64,000 nt of DNA from Brugia malayi (Eukaryota; Nematoda; Chromadorea; Rhabditida; Onchocercidae): NCBI RefSeq assembly GCF_000002995.4, contig NW_025062475.1, forward strand, positions 12,680,687 through 12,744,686, given 5' to 3'. The notes under the pieces were generated by a model. That model had not been told where the DNA came from, searched no databases, and saw only the letters and a program-made list of their open reading frames with translations. Of this stretch, positions 1 to 16,900 are shown piece after piece. Every line of letters starts with the position of its first letter. The stretch's first letter is position 1. Both the position numbers and the translations under genes were made by a program.

Positions 1-2
1 CT

Positions 3-3000
3 TCCTACCAAGTATCGCATTATTTCAACGAAAGGGTAGCCACTCGAAAAAGTCATGTACACAAGGCAATCTATATGATTGCTAAAATTGTGCAAGAAAT
101 CCTTAAAGAAGTTGAAGCACAGGAACCTCGATTCATTTCTACACTCATTGAAAATAATGGTCGATATGAAGGGGTAAGCAATTCCAAATGATCGCAGGAC
201 TGTCATCATATATCATCAATGCATTCAAAGGTGGTCTACCATCTCAGATTTCAAGTATATCACAAGGAAACGAACTGCAAAAACATTCAGTTTCGCAATT
301 CGGATCATACATCATTTTACTTTTATTCTAATCGCACAGCACAATAAATTCTTCGCTTCCATTTATTAACATTTCCATCAATTCAATATGATCCTTCTTT
401 TCCCCCTTTTATATAAGAAAGTTACATTTAGCTTTTCAGTCAAAATACTAAGAACGACATAAGGAAGCAGAGTGACAATCCATCAGATATTATCTTCATG
501 TGTCAATTTGACAGATTGATAATCTACTGTCGCATCATCACCATCATTTTGAAAAAATGAGCCCTTGATAACATCCTTGATAAATCTTATTTGACATAAG
601 TTGCAAATTGAAGGACACTTGTTCCTTTCGAAGGACATTTTATAGTTCTAGTTGAACTAATGCAGTATCTAGAAGTAGCTGGAAAGTCTCATTTGATTTT
701 TGTGTAATTCTTTAAAATCTAAAATTAGTTGGACAATAATGACAGTTCCCTTATATAATTAATTTTACGTAAACAAGTATATCAGTAAGTAACTAATTGT
801 CAACCACATTCTTGATTATCACTTAAATCCTTTTGCTGTAAAGGTTTTTCGAAATACCGCTCTCTTTTGATGTTGACAATCACAATTTCAGATTATAGTT
901 CATTCACCGTGCGAATATGAAGTAATCCTATACCTCAATCAAATGGGAGTTTTCAATTTCGTCGATGATGGCTCTATTCAAGGATGTGCAGTACTAAAAT
1001 TAAGTGATGGTAGAAAACGATCAATGTCATTATGGGTGGAATTTATTACCGCCAGCGGCTATCTGTCAGCGAGGAAAATCCGAAGTCGTTTTCATACCCT
1101 AGTAGGACAAAGCGTAGAGAAGTCACAATATCGCGATATTTGCAAAATGGTACCTGATACTACTGATGTTAAACTGAGGATACACGATGATTACATTGTC
1201 CAGATAACTTGTGCATTTCGATGCAATGGAATTTGGCCACGAAGTGCTAGTCATTGGCCACGAAGCAATATTCCCTGGCCAAATCCATCTATTGCTAATG
1301 AAGTGAAAAGTGAAGGTTTCGATTTGTTCAGCAAGGAAACTAATGCCGCTCAGAATCAACCTAATAAACAGGTCTGCTTTCTAACAGAACTTCTCTGTTT
1401 CCTCAAGACAACTTTGCAGTGTTATTTACATACCTGTAATTTGTCCGAGAACCAGAAAAAAAAAAAAAAAAAAAAAAAAGAGAATGACATTGATGTGAAA
1501 GATTTTAATGTCTATAAATGCAGAAATATTGCTAGCATGAATTCAAAAACCTACCAAATATAACAAGCAATCTTTGTTTGTTTTTAACGTATTTAATATT
1601 AGAAGTAAACATTAGCATTTATATGATGTAATCTACCTTAACCTGTCAGTTCACTATAGTAAAAATTACTACACAAATTCCAGGAAATTTTTAAAAAAAG
1701 GAATCGATTAAAGTCAAATGTCCATCTAAATGTTTGCATGTATGTGTGTCAGCGATTAAACCATGAATCTGTCCTTTCAAAAGTGGCAGGACATTTCACT
1801 AATTCGATTAACTCTCCGGGCGGAGCACATTCCACTTCATGCACTACCGTAATACATTATTTATGGGACCTTGTAATGCCTGCCACTCCCGTCCCATTGA
1901 TTTTGCACAAATGGATTGTTAGGTATCTTCTTTAAAAAGAAGCCTATCTCGCAAGACGGTATATAACTAGGATAGTTTCCCATCCGTTCCGTGAAGCATC
2001 CGATTTTTTAAATCTCATTAAACAAGCTAATAGCATACAGAGTTCCAGCATGTTTTAAATTGAAATAGTCTGCATTTCTCAATGAAAAATGGTAAATGAT
2101 AAATGATAGTCTGTCTCATCATTGGTGAATGATGATTTAAGAACTTTGAGATATTGTCAGCATAAGTCATTTATAGTTTAGCTAGTGATTTGTGGATCAG
2201 GTGGAATAATATACAGCCAAATTTGGTCTGACTACCTATTAGACGACATTCTCTGAATATAAGCTAATTGCAATTTAAATTTTGGGAAAGGAGAAAAACA
2301 AGAAGAGTCGAAGCAATCTTTAGTTTTCTTCTGAAATATGTTCCCACTGATGATAAGAACAATAAGATTTCATTAATTTCTTGATGTATTACCTGACGAA
2401 TGGAAAATAATTTGTAATGTTCGACATGGATGATCACGGAGAGAAAGAAGTTAATTAGTTGAGTGAGTGAATGAGTCCGTTCCGGTGATTAATTACAGGC
2501 CAGTTCGATGGAAGGTGACGCATGGGCGATGAGTTTACACCATGCCGAGAATACACTACTGCAACACGGCAGCAGACGTAAATCATTTTCAATTTTGAAA
2601 TGTCTACGCGACACGCATCTCGATTTCCCGCAATCACCAATTACTAATTACATTTTAAAAACGCTGCTGTTATTCGAATGCGAGAAGCATTACAATGAAT
2701 ATGAGTGGGAGGAACGATTCATCGGTGATCGAGTCATTGGTATTTATACATATTTTATCGAAACTAAGCTTCTCAAGTTCAAGTTCACTACTACTACTAC
2801 TACTACATAATTACCGTTGAAATAAACTACCACTTCCTCTTTGCTCTATTTAATTCATAACAGAAAAACTCTCATCAAATTGCCAAATTCACTGGACTAT
2901 CAACTCTCATTAATATAAAATGATCTCAAAGGGTTCATCTCTACAACCGCTACACACTGAAACGACAATATCTATTAATAAAAAACCATTCCTTTCTTCC

Positions 3001-3599
3001 TTCAATCATCATCACAGTACTGTATCAAAACTCGACGTCAATAATAAATATTCTAATGTATAAAGATTAGTAAATAGAAGTCCTAATGAGAAATGAGAAG
3101 CACAAACTATGAAAAAAAAAAAAGGAAAAATGATTTTACAAGCAGTAAAGTTATTTATTACAACTATAACGAACTATCAACGTAATTTCACTTTTAGAAG
3201 ATAAATAAAAGAATTATTCTTATTTTGGATTAGAAGTAGATATTCTTTTTGGATACGCTTTAATTTATTCTCTTCAAACCAGTATCGATTTTTACTTAAT
3301 ATCTTTACATGGGACAATTATCTAAAAGTCGAACCAAAGGAAAGAATTTGAAAATAAAGCCCAGAAACATTTATAAATCTAGCATTAGAGAGATTATTGA
3401 TCTTTCAGACTTGTTTACTTCAGGTGTGCTATTACAACTGGTATCCTGTTTACAATGCCGAAAATGTCCGCATTATTTCTTGCCTCAGTTGGACCTTCTC
3501 AAAGGAGAGCCAGCACATCTTCTCGATCAAAGTGCAAAGATTACTTGGAATCTTGTTCGACAACTGATCCTCAATGTACGCGCTCTCGAATCCTTATAA
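3..3599 (+). CDS. mab-21: MAB-21 (Mab-21-like family), partial at 5' end
   Basis: Four exons: <3-173, 892-1371, 2499-2739, 3424-3599 (TAA stop). Junction phases 0, 0 and 1 all agree, giving about 355 residues. Alignment to the family suggests that only about the first 8 N-terminal residues lie left of the window. Family hallmarks seen are EAQEPRFIS, YEVILYLNQMGVFNFVDDG, LKLSDGRKRSMSLWVEF, SGYLSARKIRSRF, GIWPRSASHWP, YILKTLLLFECEKH and SCLQCRKCPHYFLP. Length matches the usual ~360-390 residues. Family knowledge: MAB-21 proteins have a nucleotidyltransferase-like (cGAS-related) fold and act in cell-fate decisions, in C. elegans in male-tail rays and body shape. The gene runs opposite to the flanking neurobeachin gene and appears to sit inside one of its introns. 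Introns are 718, 1127 and 684 bp; the second holds a run of about 24 A. Identification is very secure. Confidence 0.96.
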
Positions 3600-4440
3600 T
3601 CTTGGCAAATCCCTAACTTCCTTTCGCTTTTCCAAAATTTGAAAAAAATTCCCAATTAGAATTTTCAGGATTTCTAATTAACGAATTTCCAATAACTACT
3701 ATTGTTCCTATTTTTCTTTTGCTAAGAAAGATACAAATAATACTAAAATTTTGACAAAAATCTTGAATGAAATTTGGACGGGACCTAAAGAAAATTCACT
3801 ATCTTCTCCTATTGCTCCTGAACTCCTATAAATGTGCTCAACTACAAATAGACATCATCCGAATGTTTCACTGAATTCTTAATGCTCAAAACAATATTGT
3901 TGTACGTGTTTGTGCATGTGTGCATATTTTTATAGTATTTCATTTGAATATTGTAGCTGCGATAAGTTTAATTGTAGTTAAATGTTGCTGTGATCATACT
4001 GCTCAACTAAAATGAACCGATGATTGCTTAATGTCCACTGTCTCATCATTAAAATTATTTCTTGAACCAGAGAAGGTAGTTTTCATTATATCTTCAATGT
4101 CGTACGTCTTCTATCATTAGCTTTATCATTAGAGTAAGGGAAATATGTACTTACTAAAAATTTGCCTCATGCTTACTATATGTATAGAGCAAAATTTTTG
4201 ATTCATAGATAATATAAACACTGGATTTATTGTATATTTAACTTCTTTGTCGAAAGCACACATTAGAACAGCTTGGATTAATACAGAAAGTAAGAGATTA
4301 GAAACAAGAATTTTCAATCGAATTAACTTGGTTAACCTTATTAATTAGTGGTTCTTAACTATACGGATTCTGTTAATAGACAGTAGTTATAAAACTGTCT
4401 ACTAAGTTAAAAAAAAAAAATTTAGCAAAAACGAGGTAAC
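3600..4440. other. Non-coding stretch 3' of mab-21, within a neurobeachin intron
   Basis: Both strands were searched for the missing second half of the PH domain and the start of BEACH (the exon following DPK should begin like a LAYTEGLHGKW segment). Nothing resembling it was found; the open frames here are short and AT-driven. The stretch is therefore best read as intron of the minus-strand neurobeachin gene plus the mab-21 3' flank. Confidence 0.7.
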
Positions 4441-7400
4441 CTTGGGATCTTGTTCCTTGTATAGTGGGTCATCTTCATCAGCATCAAAAAACAATTCATA
4501 ATTCGTTATGGAAAGGGTTCCCGGTACAACAAGACCTGGTGCAATCAACTTTGCTGCTGTTCCGTAAGTCGTTTTCTCTGAAAAGCTCCCCATTTCAAAT
4601 TATTTCATATCATAGACGATGTCATGCAAACAATATCATAAATAAACTGAAGAAAACTTTTTGGCTTTTGCAGCAGCTTGGTTAATTCTCCGTTAGCTGT
4701 TAGCAGCTATTATACATTACCATTTTTGATCTTTGGTCATCTTGATTCATTTTTCTTCTCCATTATCATAATTTCAAAATTAGAAGGATTAACTAACACA
4801 AAAAGCAACATAAGTCAAAAGCACTTTTCCGGTAAACTGCATAATTAAGCAAATAGCAATATTGCCATTAACATAGCGCAGTATGTTTCAAATGTTCTTA
4901 ACAACTGATGAAAAAGATGACTGTTGAATAGAGTTTTGTTCGAAAAAGATGAACATGAATACTAATTTGAGTCATAAAGAGATTTGATGGATACTGAAGT
5001 GATTTAGATAGCGTCATATAAGGATCTAATTTAGTTTCTTCCAGTATTTTTAACAGTTCAATTATCAAAAGCTGATATATTTAAGAGGAGATGCTAACAA
5101 TTTGGTACATAAGCACAAACTTCATCTGTCCACAAGTATTAGGTCAAACAGATAGTCTACCGTTGGTTCCAAGTCTCTTCATTCCAAGTATCTGCATAGA
5201 TGCAATCATTTAAAGAGAATTGATTCATTACACAGTCAAAAAATTGTAAAAGGTCACCTTTTAAGTCTGATGATTCCAGTGAATTAAAGTTAATTAATTT
5301 AAATTTGGCTGACAAGTATGAAATAAATCAATTTAATAAAAGCTATATAAGATTTTGAAATATTTACTAAGTGAATTTTTTGCCATTTTCACTAAATTAC
5401 CTCATAGGAATGGAAATTAATACAAAATTAAGCTATTAAAACCCCAAGAAATCAAGAATCCTGATGTTGAAGAATAAAGAACAGTCCTTCTCAATCAAGA
5501 GTAAAGCCAACTCTTTCAGTCAAACCTTCTCATTATTTATTTTGTCTAAAATAAGAGTACAAATATATCGCCTCAGATAAAAGCAAGGTACGAAGACCAA
5601 CAAGACGTATCATTTAGTAATCGAGATGTGACGCATTTGATACAATGTCATATTGTCAAATAATACAAGGTGCCGTTGTGTCTGCATGATGAAAAGCAGA
5701 TGGTCTTTAAAATAGAAGCGCGAAAAGATAATCACATGTTCCAGAAGGAGGATTATGTCAATTTGCACATTGTTTCCCTAGTAGATGTAAAAGAAAAAAT
5801 TTATTTCAGTTTTGAAACTTATAGTGGCACACTCTTCTCTCTAATACCCTAATTCCTGCTTTTCCATAATCCCTTTCACTAATACCAGTTGCATCAGACC
5901 AATCCATCAGAGCTAAATACTTTGAAATCGATTTACTGCCAATATAAGACAAGGAAACATTAATCCACATGCAAGGTTTCAAATACTGCACATTATATCA
6001 TTTCGGAGGGTTTTCCAAATACATTCATTTCTTGAAATTATATATATATATGATGAACTTCTATTCTTGCATCCTTTTAAAAGATCACATGAACAAAAAC
6101 TTACTGTTCGCAATTAATTGAATGAAGCAGCAAAATAGCAAAGCTTCCAATTGAGTAAAGATTACTTATTTAGCTTCTTCCCTCGTTCTAGCTTTACTCA
6201 ATAAGCAGTGGAATTCAACTAATTACTAACTATTCATTTAACAATAATATAATATAATTCGAAATCTCCTACCTCTTTGCAAATCGATTGCAACGTCAGG
6301 TTCAGTGGCCCATTTTTCGAAATCAGTTTCATCAACAAGCTCACCCAAAGTAGAACCAGGTTTTAGCGATCCTAAAGAAACCAGACGTTGTGCTACCAAA
6401 TCGCGTAACAAATCTTCACGAGCCTTATCAACCTAAAATTTATAAGCTCTGAATATTCAGTGTTTGTGTTGATTTCTATATTCAAATGGATTTAAAATGA
6501 AAATCTCATTTTCCACCAGTCTTAAAAAAAAAGATGTAAAAAAAAGAAAACCAGTTTTCGTAAGCTTTAATATAAAAAACTAAAGTACCTCTTTATTAGA
6601 TGACTTGCTTTCTAATATAGCTTTGAGACAAGCTGCTGAATGATGGCAGCCATAAGGATTCAATACGAAACGTTTACGTCGCCTTGAATCATCTTCCCAA
6701 ACATCCAGCTTCCAGAAAGTTTGTCTAGAAATAAATACTAGAACTATTCATTCAAGACGAATAGGTTATAGCGTTTGTGAATATATCAGGTTAACGATAC
6801 CAAACAAGACACTTACAAATGTTGACATGGATCATTCCACGCACCGCCCGGATACGATAATAATGACGTTAATCGTTCCAACAAGCGTGCTGATACAAGC
6901 AGATCTCGTCGTCGATTAGCTGTAATCAAATGGTCATTCACTTGTTCCTCTTTTCGACGTCGATGCATCTGTTCAGCTGCATCACTCTGCAAAATTACTT
7001 GACTCAATGAGGAGCCAGCGTTCAGTAATGCATGAGAAAAATCCTACTCTGACAGGTTACTCACCTCAAACTGAGCATGTTTGCTGATGTCTTCAGCTCG
7101 TAGACGATTTAGTATGAAATCAGCTTCATTAGCAACACGTAGGATATGGTCTCGTGTTGCATGTGCCATTAAACGACCTGAAGAAGATGAGCCAGATTGG
7201 AAGACAAAACGGAATGAAATGAAATGAAATTGGCGACTAAAAAATTATGGAAGAAATCTTGGATTTTTATTGAATATATCATGTATTTACTGTAAAGTCG
7301 AAAAGAAAAGAGTACAAACGATTGCATAAAAATTCGATGTTTTTTTTTTTGCATAATAAAAAAGAATACTTAATGAGCGAATATATTCATCTGACAGACC

Positions 7401-7925
7401 ATTGTAAGAACGAATCATCGGATACTATAAGTGAAACTGGTGGATAAGGGATTTTTTGCTAATAGATAAAGTTGAACAAATCTGAAAGTTAAACTTGCCT
7501 TCGTTTACTAGTTCGATGAAAGCCAGTCCAGCATGTTTTTGTAAAGATGTCTGCCACTCTTGTGAACATAACAGCATGACCAGTTCAATTACTGATCTTG
7601 CCTGATTCTTCATTGTTTCCATTACTAAATTTATGACAACTATTCCAGTTAAATATATTCTGATCACTTCAAAGAAAGAAATGACAATTCTAGAAGTTTA
7701 CCTTTGCTATCATTCATAATTTCTTGACCATGAGTTCCTAACAGTGTTTTCTGAAGATATGAACGAAAATCGGTAAGAATTTCACGCAACAATGGAGCAG
7801 TTGTTTCCAAGGCTTTTTGTAACTTGGTTGTGAGGTAAGCTCGTCGCTCACCTGTTTCTAATTCACGATTAGCAAGACTGCTATCCTAAAGTGTTCATTC
7901 ATTATGTTGAAATTTGTAAACCTTG

Positions 7926-7996
<71 letters not shown>

Positions 7997-10900
7997 TGTA
8001 TGAGAATACATAACTGAATCTCGGAGATATCTTGAACGAAAGAAGAAATAATCCAATACTTTCAAAATACAAACATTAAATGTATCCAAGTGATCTTGCC
8101 GATAGATATTACTCTGCAGTTCTTTTTCCTTGTTTTCCTCTAGTGATATCGATGATTCTTCTCTGAGGAAAACATTCTTATCCACAATATTATCTTCATA
8201 ATTAGACAACTCTCCGTTTTCTTCAGTACACGATTCCTCGTCAGTTTGTCTCAAACTATTACCACAATCTGCAAGATAGCATCGATAAGAAATAAAATAT
8301 ACTTTTTCTTTTCGAAATAATACTGCAGAACTACCTTTGTTTGTACCGCCAGTTATAGTCGTATCGAAAAAAGGACTAGGAATAGATGGTGGCTCTAAAA
8401 TATCTCTGTATCGAGAAACCATAAGTACTGATAACAAGTAAGTAACTGCAAGAGCCAGAAACTGCGCCTGTCGGTTCTCTTCCTAAACAATATTTTTGTA
8501 GCTCTAATATTCATTGCAAGCAAAATTACGGAATTAAAAACTTGACTTTTGTAAGATTCATGATCAAATATCTTATTCAACATTTTTTAAATAACATATT
8601 CACTCTATAAAATAACAGTCACATTTATAAAATACATAACCTATAAAGTATAACAATCACAGAACGGATGACTACGGTTATATGTTATGAAATTCGCAAA
8701 ATATGGTTAAATAATCAAATTAAAAGCAACAGAAAAGGAGCCTACCATATCTCGATAGATTACCCCTCTCAGCCGTTGTAAATCAACTTCCTGCACCAAA
8801 TGTTCCGGGTCCAAAATTCCCTCTTTGTTTCCCTTCAAAAAAAAGGGATAAATTTTTACAATAAGAAAAAAAAAAAAAAAATTTCTAATAAAATACTTAC
8901 TACATCCAGCGTGTCCGAAACAAATTCAGCGATCTGTTGAGCACGTGTTACTTGTTTAGCATCCATGTATGACATTTTGCCAAAGGAAGTTTTTATACGA
9001 CAGGCAAGTATATTCCGTACAGCCACCGTTGACACTATAAATATTACTTCTCACTATCACTACTGCTTCTACGATAAACGTTAATAAGTGTATTCTATTT
9101 GGTTCAAATTAAAGTACGACTTTACCTAGCCGTAATGTTTGTCGCAATATACCACCGTTGGGCATATTCTTTTCCTGTTCAAGATCACTGAAACTTATTC
9201 CGGATGCAAAGACAAAAACATCGGCCAGAACAACAAAACGTGCGAGCAAACGAGCGGCATTGCCTATAGCCAATGTTTGGTTTGTCGAATCCATTATTTC
9301 CAGTTCGCTCTAAGAGAGATTTTTCCCTTTAACAACATTCTTAACATAAGCAATTTAATTTTGACAGTTCAAACCATTGTAACTTACATTAGGAGATGTA
9401 GCAGCAGCCAAAAGAGGAAGGAGACCACCACATGCCATCACTAGCAAATCAATCAGCTGAGATAAAACGTGAACACAGTTAGCAACAAATATGCTATTTT
9501 CATTGCTATTCACAACATCCAGTATTGTTGCTGTGCCCCTAGAAGTATTTTATGTTTTCCAAAAACATAACATTCTAATATTTAATAAAAATATTTTATT
9601 CAAAGCTCATACTTCTTCCACTCTTCTACAGTACTTTCGATTGAAACAAGTAGATCGTCAAGCAATCTCAAGTGAACATCTGACCAGCAAAACTCCGGGG
9701 TGCGGTAGATGGAACTTAGCTGATCATCCGGTATTTTCGATTCATCTTTTCTTTCTACTTCATCCACAAGTCCATCCTTGAAAAAGTGCTTCAAATTAAA
9801 TAAAACTTTTTTATACTTGAAGCAATAAACATTTATAACTTACTACTGTGCGAGCCACAGATGAAACAAGGTTTTGAACTAAGTAAAATATAACGTCCGT
9901 TTCGCGTTCACCACCTCTATGAAATTTTATCTGGTGACGTTCCCAAGATACCTGAATTTTAAGAACAGAGAAATATTATTGTGGCTGAAGCTGCAAATTT
10001 TTTGTACGACACAAATATTGTTTAACTTATACTAGTTGACTTATACTTTATCTATCTCGAAATTAAATAAAACTCTTTTTTATTACTTGAGGCAATAAAC
10101 ATTCATAAACAACCATAAAAAACAAATTACCACATATTATTCTCATTCAACAGTATCAAAATATGAATGACATATTAATAAAGAATTAAATTTAATTGAC
10201 CAATGCATATCTCATTCCTAAAAGCATCCTTTTCTATCTGCCATCTATTATTTTACAAATCCGAAATCGAAAGTTTAAATCTGAACCTTTGAGTGAGCAA
10301 TAGCAAGGGTATCGACCCAAACTCTCCAACCTCCATATTCTAAATAAATAGCGTGAAAGAGAAGCTCTGCAAATACGTGATAAACAAGTTCACTGATTTC
10401 TACTTCATCTTCATTTTTAGGGAAGATATAAGCCAGTGAAATAAGCCATTCTTGCCATACGCTCATTTGCAAAATTGTACGTCGATTATCTCGTGAGTTT
10501 TTACACATATGTAGCAAATCTTCCAAAAAAATTCGTTTCACCTAAAAATACGGCAGAGTCTAACATAATCTCTTTGTTTTCATTTTCGAAAAAATGTTGC
10601 AAAATCAAAAAATCCTCAAAAAATAAAAGAATTCTATCCAAAGAACTTACCTTCATTAGTTCCAAATTATTCTCACTTTGTGTTATCAGATTGGTAATAA
10701 CTTTCAGCATCATAGGATTTTCAAATCTCATTACATCGCTGATCGATGCATGAGCCAAATAATTTATTGTTGGTGTCATTTGTTCAGTTAGTATTTCAAA
10801 CAGCACATTGTATGTTGCCAAAGTGAGATGAGTCGCGTTCAACAATAGCCGATCAGTTACAAGGGACAATAAATTAAGACTACTAACTGAATCCGTCTTT

Positions 10901-13900
10901 CGTCTAAAATATTTGCAAACATCAGCAGATCTATCATTTGTTAAGGGACTAAAAGAGAAATACCAGTTGTGACCAGCACTCATAGCAGTGCTTCCAAAAA
11001 GCAAATTCAATGAATTTATATTATGCATCTAGTACTTATAGGTGCTACATCAGTATTTTCATTCTTTTTTGATTATTAAAAGAGACGGTTCAAAATAAGT
11101 CTCACTTGAGCGTTGAGCGACATAAGAAATAACCAAATATTTTTAAAGCCGGTATACGAACAAGTTCATTGACAGAATTAATTAATTTGAACACAACTGC
11201 AAGGCCCTTCTTTCGATCGAATGCCGGTACCATTGCTGCCGGTTTTTCACAAAGTAACCGTGTTGTAAGAGCTAACACATCATAGAGATTATCATCCTTT
11301 AAACCATATAGCATGAGACAATTTTTTTAATTGTTCAAGATAATATAACGTAATACTTGTTTACATCAAACGACGTAATATTTATAACACTTATTCGCAT
11401 GAAAGCTAACGATCTGTCTACCTTAAACCGTATTAAATATGGACAGTGTTTGTTACAAAAATAAACTATGGTAAACTATTCATAAAAGTCGAAATTTAAC
11501 ACTTGCTTCATTTACGGTGGCGATGAAATTTAACAATGCATTGAATTCGCCGTCTCGATTCATAATACCGCTTTCTTTGGGATCTGGCATACATATTAGC
11601 CGAGAGACGAAAGTCAACATATGCGCGCGTATAGTTATAACTTCGTTTCTAAATAAATAAATAAATAAATATATATATATATATATATCAAAAATGCAAC
11701 CATTAGGAAAAAAACGGAATATAATGTTGTCAAACCACCAGTAACTTTTATCACAGTGAACTGATTTCTCAATTAAAATTTCGTGTTCAAATATCTACCG
11801 ACAATTAATTGTTGTTTATCATCAAAAATTATCTTTCTTTTTTTTAAAAAAAATAAGAACTTGGACGAGATTTGACTATGAGTTAAAAGAAAGAAAGAAA
11901 GACAGAATTAAAAGAAAGACAAAATTTGAATAAATGCTAACCGAGATGGCCTTCCTTCACGGCTAATCACATTGTACAGTGAGGGTGAATGTGGCATAAC
12001 AACCCAATAATACAGCTTGATAGTATGAAGCATCTCAACAACAGTGGCACAACGTTGTACAATCAGCATGAAATTGGCGCCCGTTAAAAATTCGCTTGCC
12101 AAAAAGTAATATAATTGAATTTGTATCTAAAACAACCGTTACTGTTAAATAATAGTGAAAATCAACAATCATTTCAACTACAAAATATATTAATTATGCA
12201 AAAGTATTAATTATTCATATTACGCTTTTTATATAAAATATATTACAACGAAAGGGGAAGATTTACTATCACTTTAGCCAAACTTTACGCAAGAAATTCC
12301 GAAATCCTTGTCTTCGTTGTTGTTGTGGAAATCACTAAATTTTTTTAACCAAACTAATAGCAAGAGTAGAAACTAATGCTTACTATAGGATCAGCTCTAC
12401 TCCAGAGTTCAGGATTGAAAAGAATATAATCGAAAAGATGTTTCAGCAGCGGCGTTCCCGAAGGGAATGCCAATAGATATTTCGAAATATCAATTAAAAT
12501 TTCCAGCACGTGCTGACTAAGGTTTGAAGATGATGACTGAAATAAAGCAGCATTTATTACTATACTCTATAATAATCACAATGTCAATATTAAGCTAACT
12601 GCTGTTAGTTATTTTAATCCCAACGAAATTTAAAATAAATTTACTTCATATAAGGCCTGAGAAATGACAAGAAATGCTCTGCTATGATACAGTTGTTGGG
12701 GGGCATTTGAAGCAGTCCTTAGAAGAAGAGATATAGCTGATAGTAATTTCGAGCTGAAATGTTTGTAATATTTGTAAATTTCTTTTTTTTGAAAATTTGA
12801 AATATTCTTTTAAAAAATTAGTGTAGTAGAGAGATAAAATAGTTCAATGATAAATGATCACTTTTATTACACTTCACTTTTAAAATCAATAATACCTTCC
12901 CGTTACAATGGAGTTGCGTACTTTGATGAAGGATAAGGCAACATAAAAAAGGTATTACTACTACAGCTATCGTTACGATCTTTCTTGCTATATTCAAAGA
13001 GAAACTAATCCGTTTCTGAGACTACAAGTTCTCAGTGATTTTTTTCTTCAGAATAAACTAGTTTAGCATCTTTATAATCGTTCAGCACCTATTCCGATCA
13101 AAAAACTGGAATTTATGCAAGATTATGAGGCTCATCAAAATGCGAGATGGCATGGTTTGGTGCATGAACATTAATTTCCTCTTCTCATAAATGAATTAAG
13201 GTGTTAGAAGGGAGGAAGGAAATAATAAAATATTTTATTTCTTCAAATTCGTTAAAGGAAAAGCTATTGGTAACTTGCAAAGAAGATATCCTAGAGAACT
13301 TAATTTTTTGAAAAACTCGAATGCTAATCAAAGTCTTTGAAAAAATCGTTTAAAAAGAATTATGGTGGTTAATGATGAATATATATATATATATGTAGAA
13401 TGGAAAAAGAAGTGACAGATGAAATGGGATGTATGATATGTTGTAGAATGACAGGAATCAATCAGATATAGCAAGTGAAAAAAGATATTCCTCTTATTGT
13501 GTTAACTGCACAAGTTTTAACACCTCTACATATAATGTAAAAAGTTAATAATTTTATAAATAATATGAAATTTGAAAATTACCACACATCAATTTTCCGT
13601 ACATTTCCATCATACTGAGGAAAATCTAATTGAGAAAATAGAGGCAAAAGCATCTGTATACCGCCTAAGGAATGTAAAGAATTGTGAATTGAATAAGTTT
13701 TCACCACTTCGACGCCCTAAAAAAACCACCGAGAAAATATTGAACATGATAGCATGTGCTTTGAAAAAAATGGTATATTATATATTTGAAAACTGGATAT
13801 GAACCTCTTTCATAATAGCATGTGGAACCTGCACAAAATACGGAGCACCTATTTTAGACGCTGAATGTAAGCACAACTGTCCATCACAATTCTTCGGTGA

Positions 13901-16900
13901 ATACGCTATCACAACGGAAGCACTGAGTTTTCCATCAAATATAAACTGAAATATATAACTCATACGCGAAAAAGTTAACAATGAAGATCCGACTCGACTC
14001 ATAATATTATACCTTTTTATAATCATCAGACAAATCAGTCTCGGCTTCATGCAGAAAACAACTCTGATACGACGATCCCAAACAAAAGATTGCATTAACT
14101 TGTTGCGCACTTAAGGCTTCCGAAAACACATACAAAGCTGCTATCTGTCCACAGAATGGTTCTTCTCCATCGGGGCCACACCCAATACTACATTTATCAA
14201 AGTGTTCTGTTGTGGAGACGAACCTAAAAAAGAACGATTTTCAAAATATCACTAAAACATGATAAATACGTGAAAGTTGCAATAATTGATGACAATCAGA
14301 AAACAAATAAAGCATAACGGATACCACGACACGTCGAAAGACTCAATCATTTGGCCGTCCACAAAACATTGGATTTCACTCTTCGACCAACGAGAATAAA
14401 TATGCGAGATCGCAACATGATGCCACCTAAACAAAACTCGGTATAACAATTATATGAAGAAATTGTCTATAAGTAACAGAACAAGAAGAACGAACCTTCT
14501 AGGTGTCAATTCAAATCGTATACACCGTGCTGTTTCCTTACCTACGACTTTAATGCAACTGATAACCAAACAATTGCCCATAATATAACAGTTGTAACCA
14601 AGTCCTTTTGTGGTCCGAAAACTGAGAAAGAAAAATCTTTATTAATGAAACAAAAAAAAAAAAAAAAAACTAGAATTGAAACCTCCTATTTGAAACCCAG
14701 TCTTTTTGATCAACAATCAAAAAACATTTTAGTAATGAAATATACGCATACCAGTATATGTAGGGGCGCTCCTTTTCGAAGTTGACACTATTTAAAGGGT
14801 CCATTTTCAACCAAGTGCAAAAACTCCAGCCATTCTGATAAGGCCACTTTGTCAGCGGAGGTAATGCAATACCCTTAAACAGATACTTCTCAGCATTAAA
14901 CATTCTCGTTCTGCTACTTTTTTATCAGAATTTCTTTTAAAATTGAGGCAAAGAAACTAACTGCACTATGCACACCAGGAAACGAAAAGAAAACATCTGC
15001 ACCATCGCGTTTTGGCATTTCTCCTAGGACATCCAGAAGCTTGATCGAGTTCTTACGCTGTAATTTACCAACTACAACTTCGTGTTAAAAAAAGAGTAAA
15101 GAAGGGATATCAATAGATTATTTGATATCTCAGACATCACTGAACAATATAAAAAAAACAATAAGGAAAACACACAAACATACCCATTTTCTATTTACTG
15201 CCTTCAAAGCACGGAGAAATCTTTTGGTCTCCTTAACGGTGATACTGTAAGTTGTAAGCACTCCAAGAAGTTGTATTAATAAATCAGAGACAACTGCATC
15301 GCTATTTGATAACCGTTCAAGAATCTAAAATTCCTTCGAAAATTCATTTTATCAGAAAATACTTTAGAAAAGGTTCCAGCAAAATTAACCTCTAAGACGA
15401 GGCCAACTCTTGAGCAAGCTTGCATGTTACGTGCACTTTTGCGGACAACGCCAATGAAGACGCTCCATATTTCTGCCTAAAAAAAATTATGCAACTCTTA
15501 AATATAAAAGTCAGCACAAAGTAAAAAATCAATAGCTGCACGAAAAATGAAGATTATTAAAAATAATATCACCAAATTGATAAGAAAATGATAAGATAAA
15601 CCTCCAAGTGAGATGGAGCTTTGTCCAACAGGTGCAATAGACGAGTAATATTTCTGGAATCTCCGATAATAAAATTTGATTCAATATCGAATGTTCCACC
15701 AACAAGCTAGAAAAACGACTGTAAAAAACAAGAAGAAATGAATTTATTCACTGCTCATATAGTCATATATCTTTTCCTATTAAATAAAATATTTAAACTG
15801 ACCGTATTGAAGACTGAATCAACAATTTCTTTGTGTGTAAGAGTTTTGTCATGCAGACCCTGCTGCAATCTTTGAAATGTCTCATCGGGCATTTCGTCTA
15901 CTGAGTGAATTATTACAGTGTTATTTTCCACTTTATTCTTAATCAAATCAACTTGTTTTTCAAAACTTGACATAGCCTGAAAAACAAATTTTAGAAGGAA
16001 TGTTCGCGCTTTTGCTTTTTTCATTGAATTGATTCCGGCATTTTTCATAAACACTGAAATCACTGTTAAGCCTTATCTTCATTTCTTTGAAAAAAACCGC
16101 TCTGAATTGCTTGGATATTGTAACAGTATAGCTCCATAAAGATCAGTGCAACTTTTTAGTGTCACATTCAGTGTTTGTATTCATGGTATGTTATTGCTTC
16201 TACTGCTTACAAATGAAGCTCATGTATAAAGAGACAGAAGATGACCCAGCAATAGGAATTAGTTGTGTATCTAGAATGATACGACAGAGAAATTGAAGAA
16301 AATTTTCATGAATGTATATAAAGTCAATAACATGTCGAATATCCTAATTTAATGATACTACATGAAAGATTAAGAGAATGTGAGAGAGAGAAAAAAAGAA
16401 ATGGTAGATTCCAATATTTTTTAATTCCTTGAAAGTCTAGCACAGGGAATAAGTCGATTATGGAATGAATGTTATGAATTCCCTCATACTTTGAAGTCAT
16501 AATAATATATTCCATGCAGTACTAGTTTTCTGACTCCTCTACTTTTTTCATTTGACTCCTCATTTCATCTTCTTTTTTAAGAAAAAAAAATTATCAATAT
16601 TAAAATAATACAACAGGAAGTAACACATGTAAGATAAAGCAAAATACTATTCAACCTGCTCATCTTCCAAAGACTTATCATCTTCATCTCGGACATCAGC
16701 AACTTCTCCTTTATTGTGATTATCAACAATATCATCTACAGCTTCCTTCAGCATGCTGCTACTAGATAAATCATTAGCAGTTGATATTACGCTTCTTTCG
16801 TCCAATCTAACATCCTCCATTTCACCTTCATTTTCAGCGTCACACAAATTCTGCAAATTTCCTGCTACTTATCGGATTTCTAACACAGTCACTTCGCTAT

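Follow-up and report, generated by a model that had tools for sequence, protein, structure and literature searches.

We analysed a 64,000-nucleotide stretch of the Brugia malayi genome (contig C135, NW_025062475.1, positions 12680687-12744686; hereafter the window) together with its left flank, and found that the developmental gene mab-21 lies antisense within a single intron of the neurobeachin gene (sel-2). We put at about 0.96 the probability that this filarial locus represents the ancient metazoan Mab21 - Lrba/Nbea nested gene pair. A first-pass annotation, made from the letters of the window, had read neurobeachin on the minus strand as far as the first half of its PH domain (exon edge at 4441) and had proposed that mab-21 sits in one of its introns on the opposite strand. 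The nesting itself is already known, with published descriptions going back to 2007. What we add is a gene model from a filarial worm and an apparent match, at the level of the codon, between the host intron and an intron of human LRBA.

Structure of the nested pair

The assembly comprises 86.8 Mb in 139 contigs, of which C135 measures 14.7 Mb. Short coordinates below refer to the window (negative values lie to its left) and eight-digit coordinates to this contig. The left flank (12651001-12681000, about 30 kb and reaching slightly into the window) was joined to the window through a 314-base overlap that is identical in both. The locus was aligned by tblastn with the neurobeachin homologue of Ascaris suum (2,547 residues; P0122) as guide protein, and a second guide, the 'putative neurobeachin homolog' of Loa loa, was also aligned to it.

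On the minus strand, host exon A (4577 to 4441; 12685127-12685263) encodes the first half of the PH domain and ends in EQDPK, directly followed by a GT donor. The domain resumes to the left of the window in exon B (12676119-12676236, minus strand), which carries its second half and starts ILLYCDNLHGRWHFHEIR after TTATAG. The intron between them runs from 12676237 to 12685126 (-4449..4440, with 1..4440 inside the window), is 8,890 bp long, has GT-AG ends and is in phase 0. The PH domain is therefore split just after DPK, as had been predicted. The first-pass annotation had also expected the next host exon to begin like LAYTEGLHGKW and to lead into BEACH; the actual start is close to this rather than the same, and BEACH does follow.

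Exons C to G come after exon B on the minus strand with GT-AG junctions, and five BEACH pieces lie within 12673422-12675868. When exons A to G were spliced, the resulting protein of 419 residues aligned without gaps to LRBA (1t77; 410 aligned residues, E 5e-192) and to NBEA (1mi1; 409 aligned residues, E 3.4e-186), which were its only PDB matches at E 0.001. Over PH-BEACH, the Loa loa homologue is 97% identical. As judged by sequence, the host is an NBEA/LRBA orthologue, distinct from the other BEACH genes.

The Ascaris guide extended this model over nearly the whole host. It returned 39 pieces, all on the minus strand and collinear, from residue 42 to residue 2547; no match was obtained for residues 80-143 or for eight further stretches, each of 1-8 residues, and the outermost N-terminal piece (from residue 42) is weak (E 0.08). 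Within the window lie 26 of the pieces, 25 of them upstream of exon A at 6274..16853 (minus strand), where they cover the N-terminal and middle parts of the host, including the DUF4704 region (PF15787 pieces within 12690976-12694408). Eight of the 26 span 48-156 bases beyond what their residues need and may each hide a short intron. The earlier figure of 35 host exons in the window is plausible, and rests on no exon count here.

At the nested gene the guide jumps from 12685127 (residue 1776) to 12676233 (residue 1778), leaving one residue unmatched. This gap of about 8.9 kb compares with 1.7 kb for the next largest in the aligned part of the guide (residues 42-2547). The interval 3600-4440 (841 bp), between the mab-21 stop and exon A, contains no exon shown by the Ascaris guide, in agreement with the earlier statement that the host does not continue beside mab-21. 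The last residue of the guide is matched at 12670709, left of the window. The Loa loa guide gave 31 rows, 30 of them on the minus strand, collinear and with the same break at the nested gene; the remaining row is a weak plus-strand match elsewhere (E 0.62). Thus, the remaining PH, BEACH and downstream exons lie beyond mab-21, on the same strand and the same contig, where the first-pass annotation had anticipated them; they were neither absent nor placed on another contig. The WD40 family PF20426 gave no match over its cut-off, and none to the host exons, so that the evidence for the WD40 end is the ordered guide match.

The nested gene, mab-21, occupies 12680662-12684285 on the plus strand and consists of four coding exons that encode 364 residues and a stop. 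Exon 1 lies at -24..173 (1..173 inside the window), exon 2, which carries the PF03281 match, at 892..1371, exon 3 at 2499..2739 and exon 4, with its TAA stop, at 3424..3599. The introns between them measure 718, 1127 and 684 bp, and all three are GT-AG. Every coding exon is contained in the single host intron, with 4,425 bp of that intron before the ATG and 841 bp after the stop. The first-pass annotation had the strand right and had started the gene at base 3; that base falls within exon 1, and the true ATG, at -24 (12680662), is 25 bases to the left of the window. An acceptor-like TTTTTTTTAG ends 56 bases 5' of this ATG.

Residues 9-364 of mab-21 matched human MAB21L1 (5eog) with E 1.7e-147, the best match to a solved structure, and the protein is 89% and 87% identical to proteins of Toxocara and Gnathostoma, respectively. 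A search of the genome for the Mab-21 domain (PF03281) returned one match, namely the gene in the host intron. These comparisons identify the nested gene as an intact Mab-21 orthologue at the level of its predicted protein.

Several further features of the locus were recorded. A GT-rich repeat lies at about -436..-370, some 350-400 bp upstream of mab-21, and a TA run at about 7926-7993 in the host gene region. A near-perfect hairpin with a 5-base loop occurs at C135:12678156-12678200, in the host intron upstream of mab-21; the stretch that contains it (121 nt) has a folding energy of -33.2 kcal/mol (z -8.65) and no Rfam match, and its arm motif, with up to 2 mismatches allowed, was found at its own two arms only. 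At gathering scores, Rfam gave no match in the window or in the 10 kb to the left of and into it. A transposon origin of the intron was considered and rejected: among the 40 candidates scored out of 653, the sequence preceding mab-21 (4,425 bp) hit itself, low-complexity sequence and one self-complementary stretch, the low-complexity matches falling mainly at query 460-558 and 4011-4095, plus an A-rich stretch.

Two further BEACH-domain genes were found, at C139:4764531-4766375 and C139:16763289-16765986. By appearance they may be WDFY3-like and LYST-like. Their ownership of the left-hand exons was excluded, since they sit on C139. A matching PH intron in these paralogues was also considered and dropped, the alignment not being confident.

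Position of the host intron relative to human LRBA and NBEA

The phase and codon position of the nematode intron can be set against the human gene through described LRBA alleles. In one, exons 36-41 are missing and exon 35 is joined to exon 42 (c.5646_6363del; PMC8072023). Given that this deletion removes exons 36-41, the final base of exon 41 is c.6363, which completes codon 2121, and the junction is hence in phase 0. We assume that residue 1 of the 1t77 chain is LRBA residue 2076, which suits a chain of 414 residues covering 2076-2489. On this assumption codon 2121 is chain residue 46, the Lys of DPK. This Lys is aligned with the residue that closes exon A in the nematode, and the junction c.6363/6364 falls between chain residues 46 and 47. 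A second allele, c.6862delT, is reported as p.Y2288MfsX29 (PMC5022363). Such a change needs a Tyr followed by a codon that begins with G. The Tyr-Glu at chain residue 213 provides it, at the place expected under the assumed numbering.

Exon lengths provide a further comparison. In a human deletion of 113.6 kb that lies upstream of MAB21L2, LRBA loses four exons and 150 residues in frame, so that the PH and BEACH domains are partly removed (PMC11511899). Host exons B and C together measure 118 + 332 = 450 bp, or 150 codons, which fits the presence of human introns at both ends of this segment. With the chain numbering assumed as above, it is very probable that intron 41 of human LRBA agrees with the nesting intron of the nematode in both codon boundary and phase. 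For NBEA, a translocation with its breakpoint in intron 41 puts PDK3 upstream of MAB21L1 (PMC10557686). Literature searches found no codon position for the NBEA nesting intron and nothing usable on LRBA splice variants.

We further hypothesise that the intron at this exact PH codon boundary, in phase 0, is the ancestral home of mab-21, and that from nematodes to humans the presence of the nested gene has prevented its loss or displacement, a proposal to which we give even odds. If true, the intron would be free to shrink or vanish where mab-21 has left it, as in Pristionchus and flies.

Relation to published nested pairs

Tsang et al. (2009) reportedly described a conserved nested gene pair of Mab21 and Lrba/Nbea. 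As cited elsewhere, this organisation is kept throughout metazoan genomes, some insects excepted (PMC3786989). Among the metazoan taxa used by Nikolaidis (2007), Drosophila was the only one in which synteny of the pair was not kept; MAB21L1 was placed within NBEA and MAB21L2 within LRBA, each in an intron (PMC1784063). In nematodes, according to Rodelsperger (2016), mab-21 lies antisense in the largest intron of sel-2 across all clades, if not in every genome; the 20 genomes used included Brugia malayi, Dirofilaria immitis, Loa loa and Onchocerca volvulus (PMC4994411). The evolutionary reading of the first-pass annotation, an old nesting shared with vertebrates, was sound but had already been published in 2007, 2009 and 2016. 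Its 'early bilaterian' age is an underestimate if the 'all metazoan taxa used' of Nikolaidis (2007) covers Nematostella. In the literature on the pair, with the full text of Tsang et al. (2009) outside our scope, we came across no mention that the introns match at codon level, and we do not claim that it is unpublished.

The filarial locus resembles the metazoan pair in having a mab-21 orthologue in an intron of an NBEA/LRBA orthologue. We found one copy of each gene, whereas vertebrates have two pairs, MAB21L1/NBEA and MAB21L2/LRBA, and mab-21 has three coding introns here in contrast to none in the vertebrate coding sequences (PMC1784063). The human LRBA locus is much larger, and four of its exons equal two of the present ones in length (150 amino acids). 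The antisense intronic nesting is as described for nematode sel-2/mab-21 (Rodelsperger 2016), to which the codon position and phase of the host intron are added here. In Haemonchus contortus (V3C99_002630/V3C99_002631) and Pristionchus mayeri (PMAYCL1PPCAC_13471/_13472), the locus numbers of neurobeachin and mab-21 are adjacent, which alone does not show nesting. The two numbers are not adjacent in Steinernema carpocapsae (L596_018191, L596_018836), where the genes are on contigs of equal listed size.

Alternative explanations and maintenance of the pair

We considered whether a misassembly could have joined two neurobeachin parts around mab-21. The verdict here comes from an assembled contig, but the flanking exons are 8.9 kb apart on a contig of 14.7 Mb, with strand and order preserved, and their spliced protein is gapless; the same nesting is also reported in other nematode assemblies (PMC4994411). 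An artefact of this type is extremely unlikely. Nematodes split and trans-splice some genes, and the host might accordingly be two genes or messages (one N-terminal, the other PH2-BEACH-WD40) with no cis-splicing to join them across the 8.9 kb, in which case mab-21 would lie between genes. Against this, the intron divides a single PH domain at a codon boundary, and the neurobeachins of relatives are single proteins of about 2,550 amino acids. One of these (2,542 amino acids, with 88% identity across that part of PH-BEACH which was scored) is encoded on an 8,047-base record (P0123) with hardly room for introns, which suggests that the relative's host message is spliced across the nesting point. 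The human LRBA junction, apparently at the same place, also lies inside one message, and a split host is very improbable. We found nothing to favour the idea that mab-21 entered the same host gene separately in the nematode and vertebrate lineages. The host family is the same, the codon and phase of the host intron are apparently the same, and one study reported the pair in every metazoan taxon it used but Drosophila (PMC1784063), leaving separate insertion with hardly any probability.

The two genes, whose products are unrelated, share one locus and would be transcribed independently. The host pre-mRNA would read through mab-21 and splice it out as antisense intron sequence, and the mab-21 promoter would lie in the 4.4 kb between its own start codon and host exon B. 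Why the two genes have stayed together is a further question. We consider it probable that mab-21 enhancers interleave with indispensable host exons, such that separation would usually harm one of the genes. This argument draws on vertebrates, in which conserved elements upstream of MAB21L2 lie inside LRBA, and targeting of one of them, CE14, in Xenopus lowers expression of mab21l2 but not of lrba (PMC11511899). Given the location of these elements inside LRBA, separating the genes could break their regulation.

Several points weigh against this account as a whole. The independent transcription and cis-splicing of the pair are inferred for this species, and the position of human MAB21L2 within LRBA intron 41 itself is likely. 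Tyr residues at chain positions 178, 226 and 374 also fit p.Y2288M, and the assumed numbering alone picks 213. Some nematode lineages have no apparent overlap of the two genes, partly through assembly problems, but Pristionchus has clearly lost the nesting; host and nested genes in nematodes generally show uncorrelated expression; and very little noncoding sequence is conserved between P. pacificus and C. elegans (PMC4994411). These last three observations indicate that the nesting is not essential and make the enhancer argument weaker in nematodes. They also favour simple inertia, in which a long intron in an essential gene is difficult to break and leaves mab-21 no easy way out, with no shared or interleaved regulation. 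According to the same authors, the integrity of large host genes alone could yield unusually large conserved blocks (PMC4994411). On the other side, most antisense pairs in nematodes are lineage-specific, whereas mab-21/sel-2 is broadly kept (PMC4994411), and expression of mab21l2 falls when the lrba-intron element is targeted in Xenopus (PMC11511899). We regard inertia alone as possible but the less likely explanation, and favour interleaved enhancers.

The locus is a clear case of a gene pair held together since early animal evolution. Its human counterpart bears on disease, in that a person with the deletion in LRBA upstream of MAB21L2 had microphthalmia, and zebrafish and Xenopus models showed eye defects (PMC11511899). 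The compact, clean gene model presented here, with an intron of 8.9 kb, can help to establish which segment of the intron holds the pair in place.

Other observations in the genome

Outside the locus, contig C7, at least 66 kb in length, carries at 64774-66114 a COX1 that is open under the invertebrate mitochondrial code. On C96, two COX1-like copies riddled with stops (2059-3069 and 10189-11205) are spaced about 8.1 kb apart. Together these perhaps reflect a concatenated mitochondrial contig and mitochondrial-like insertions or artefacts.

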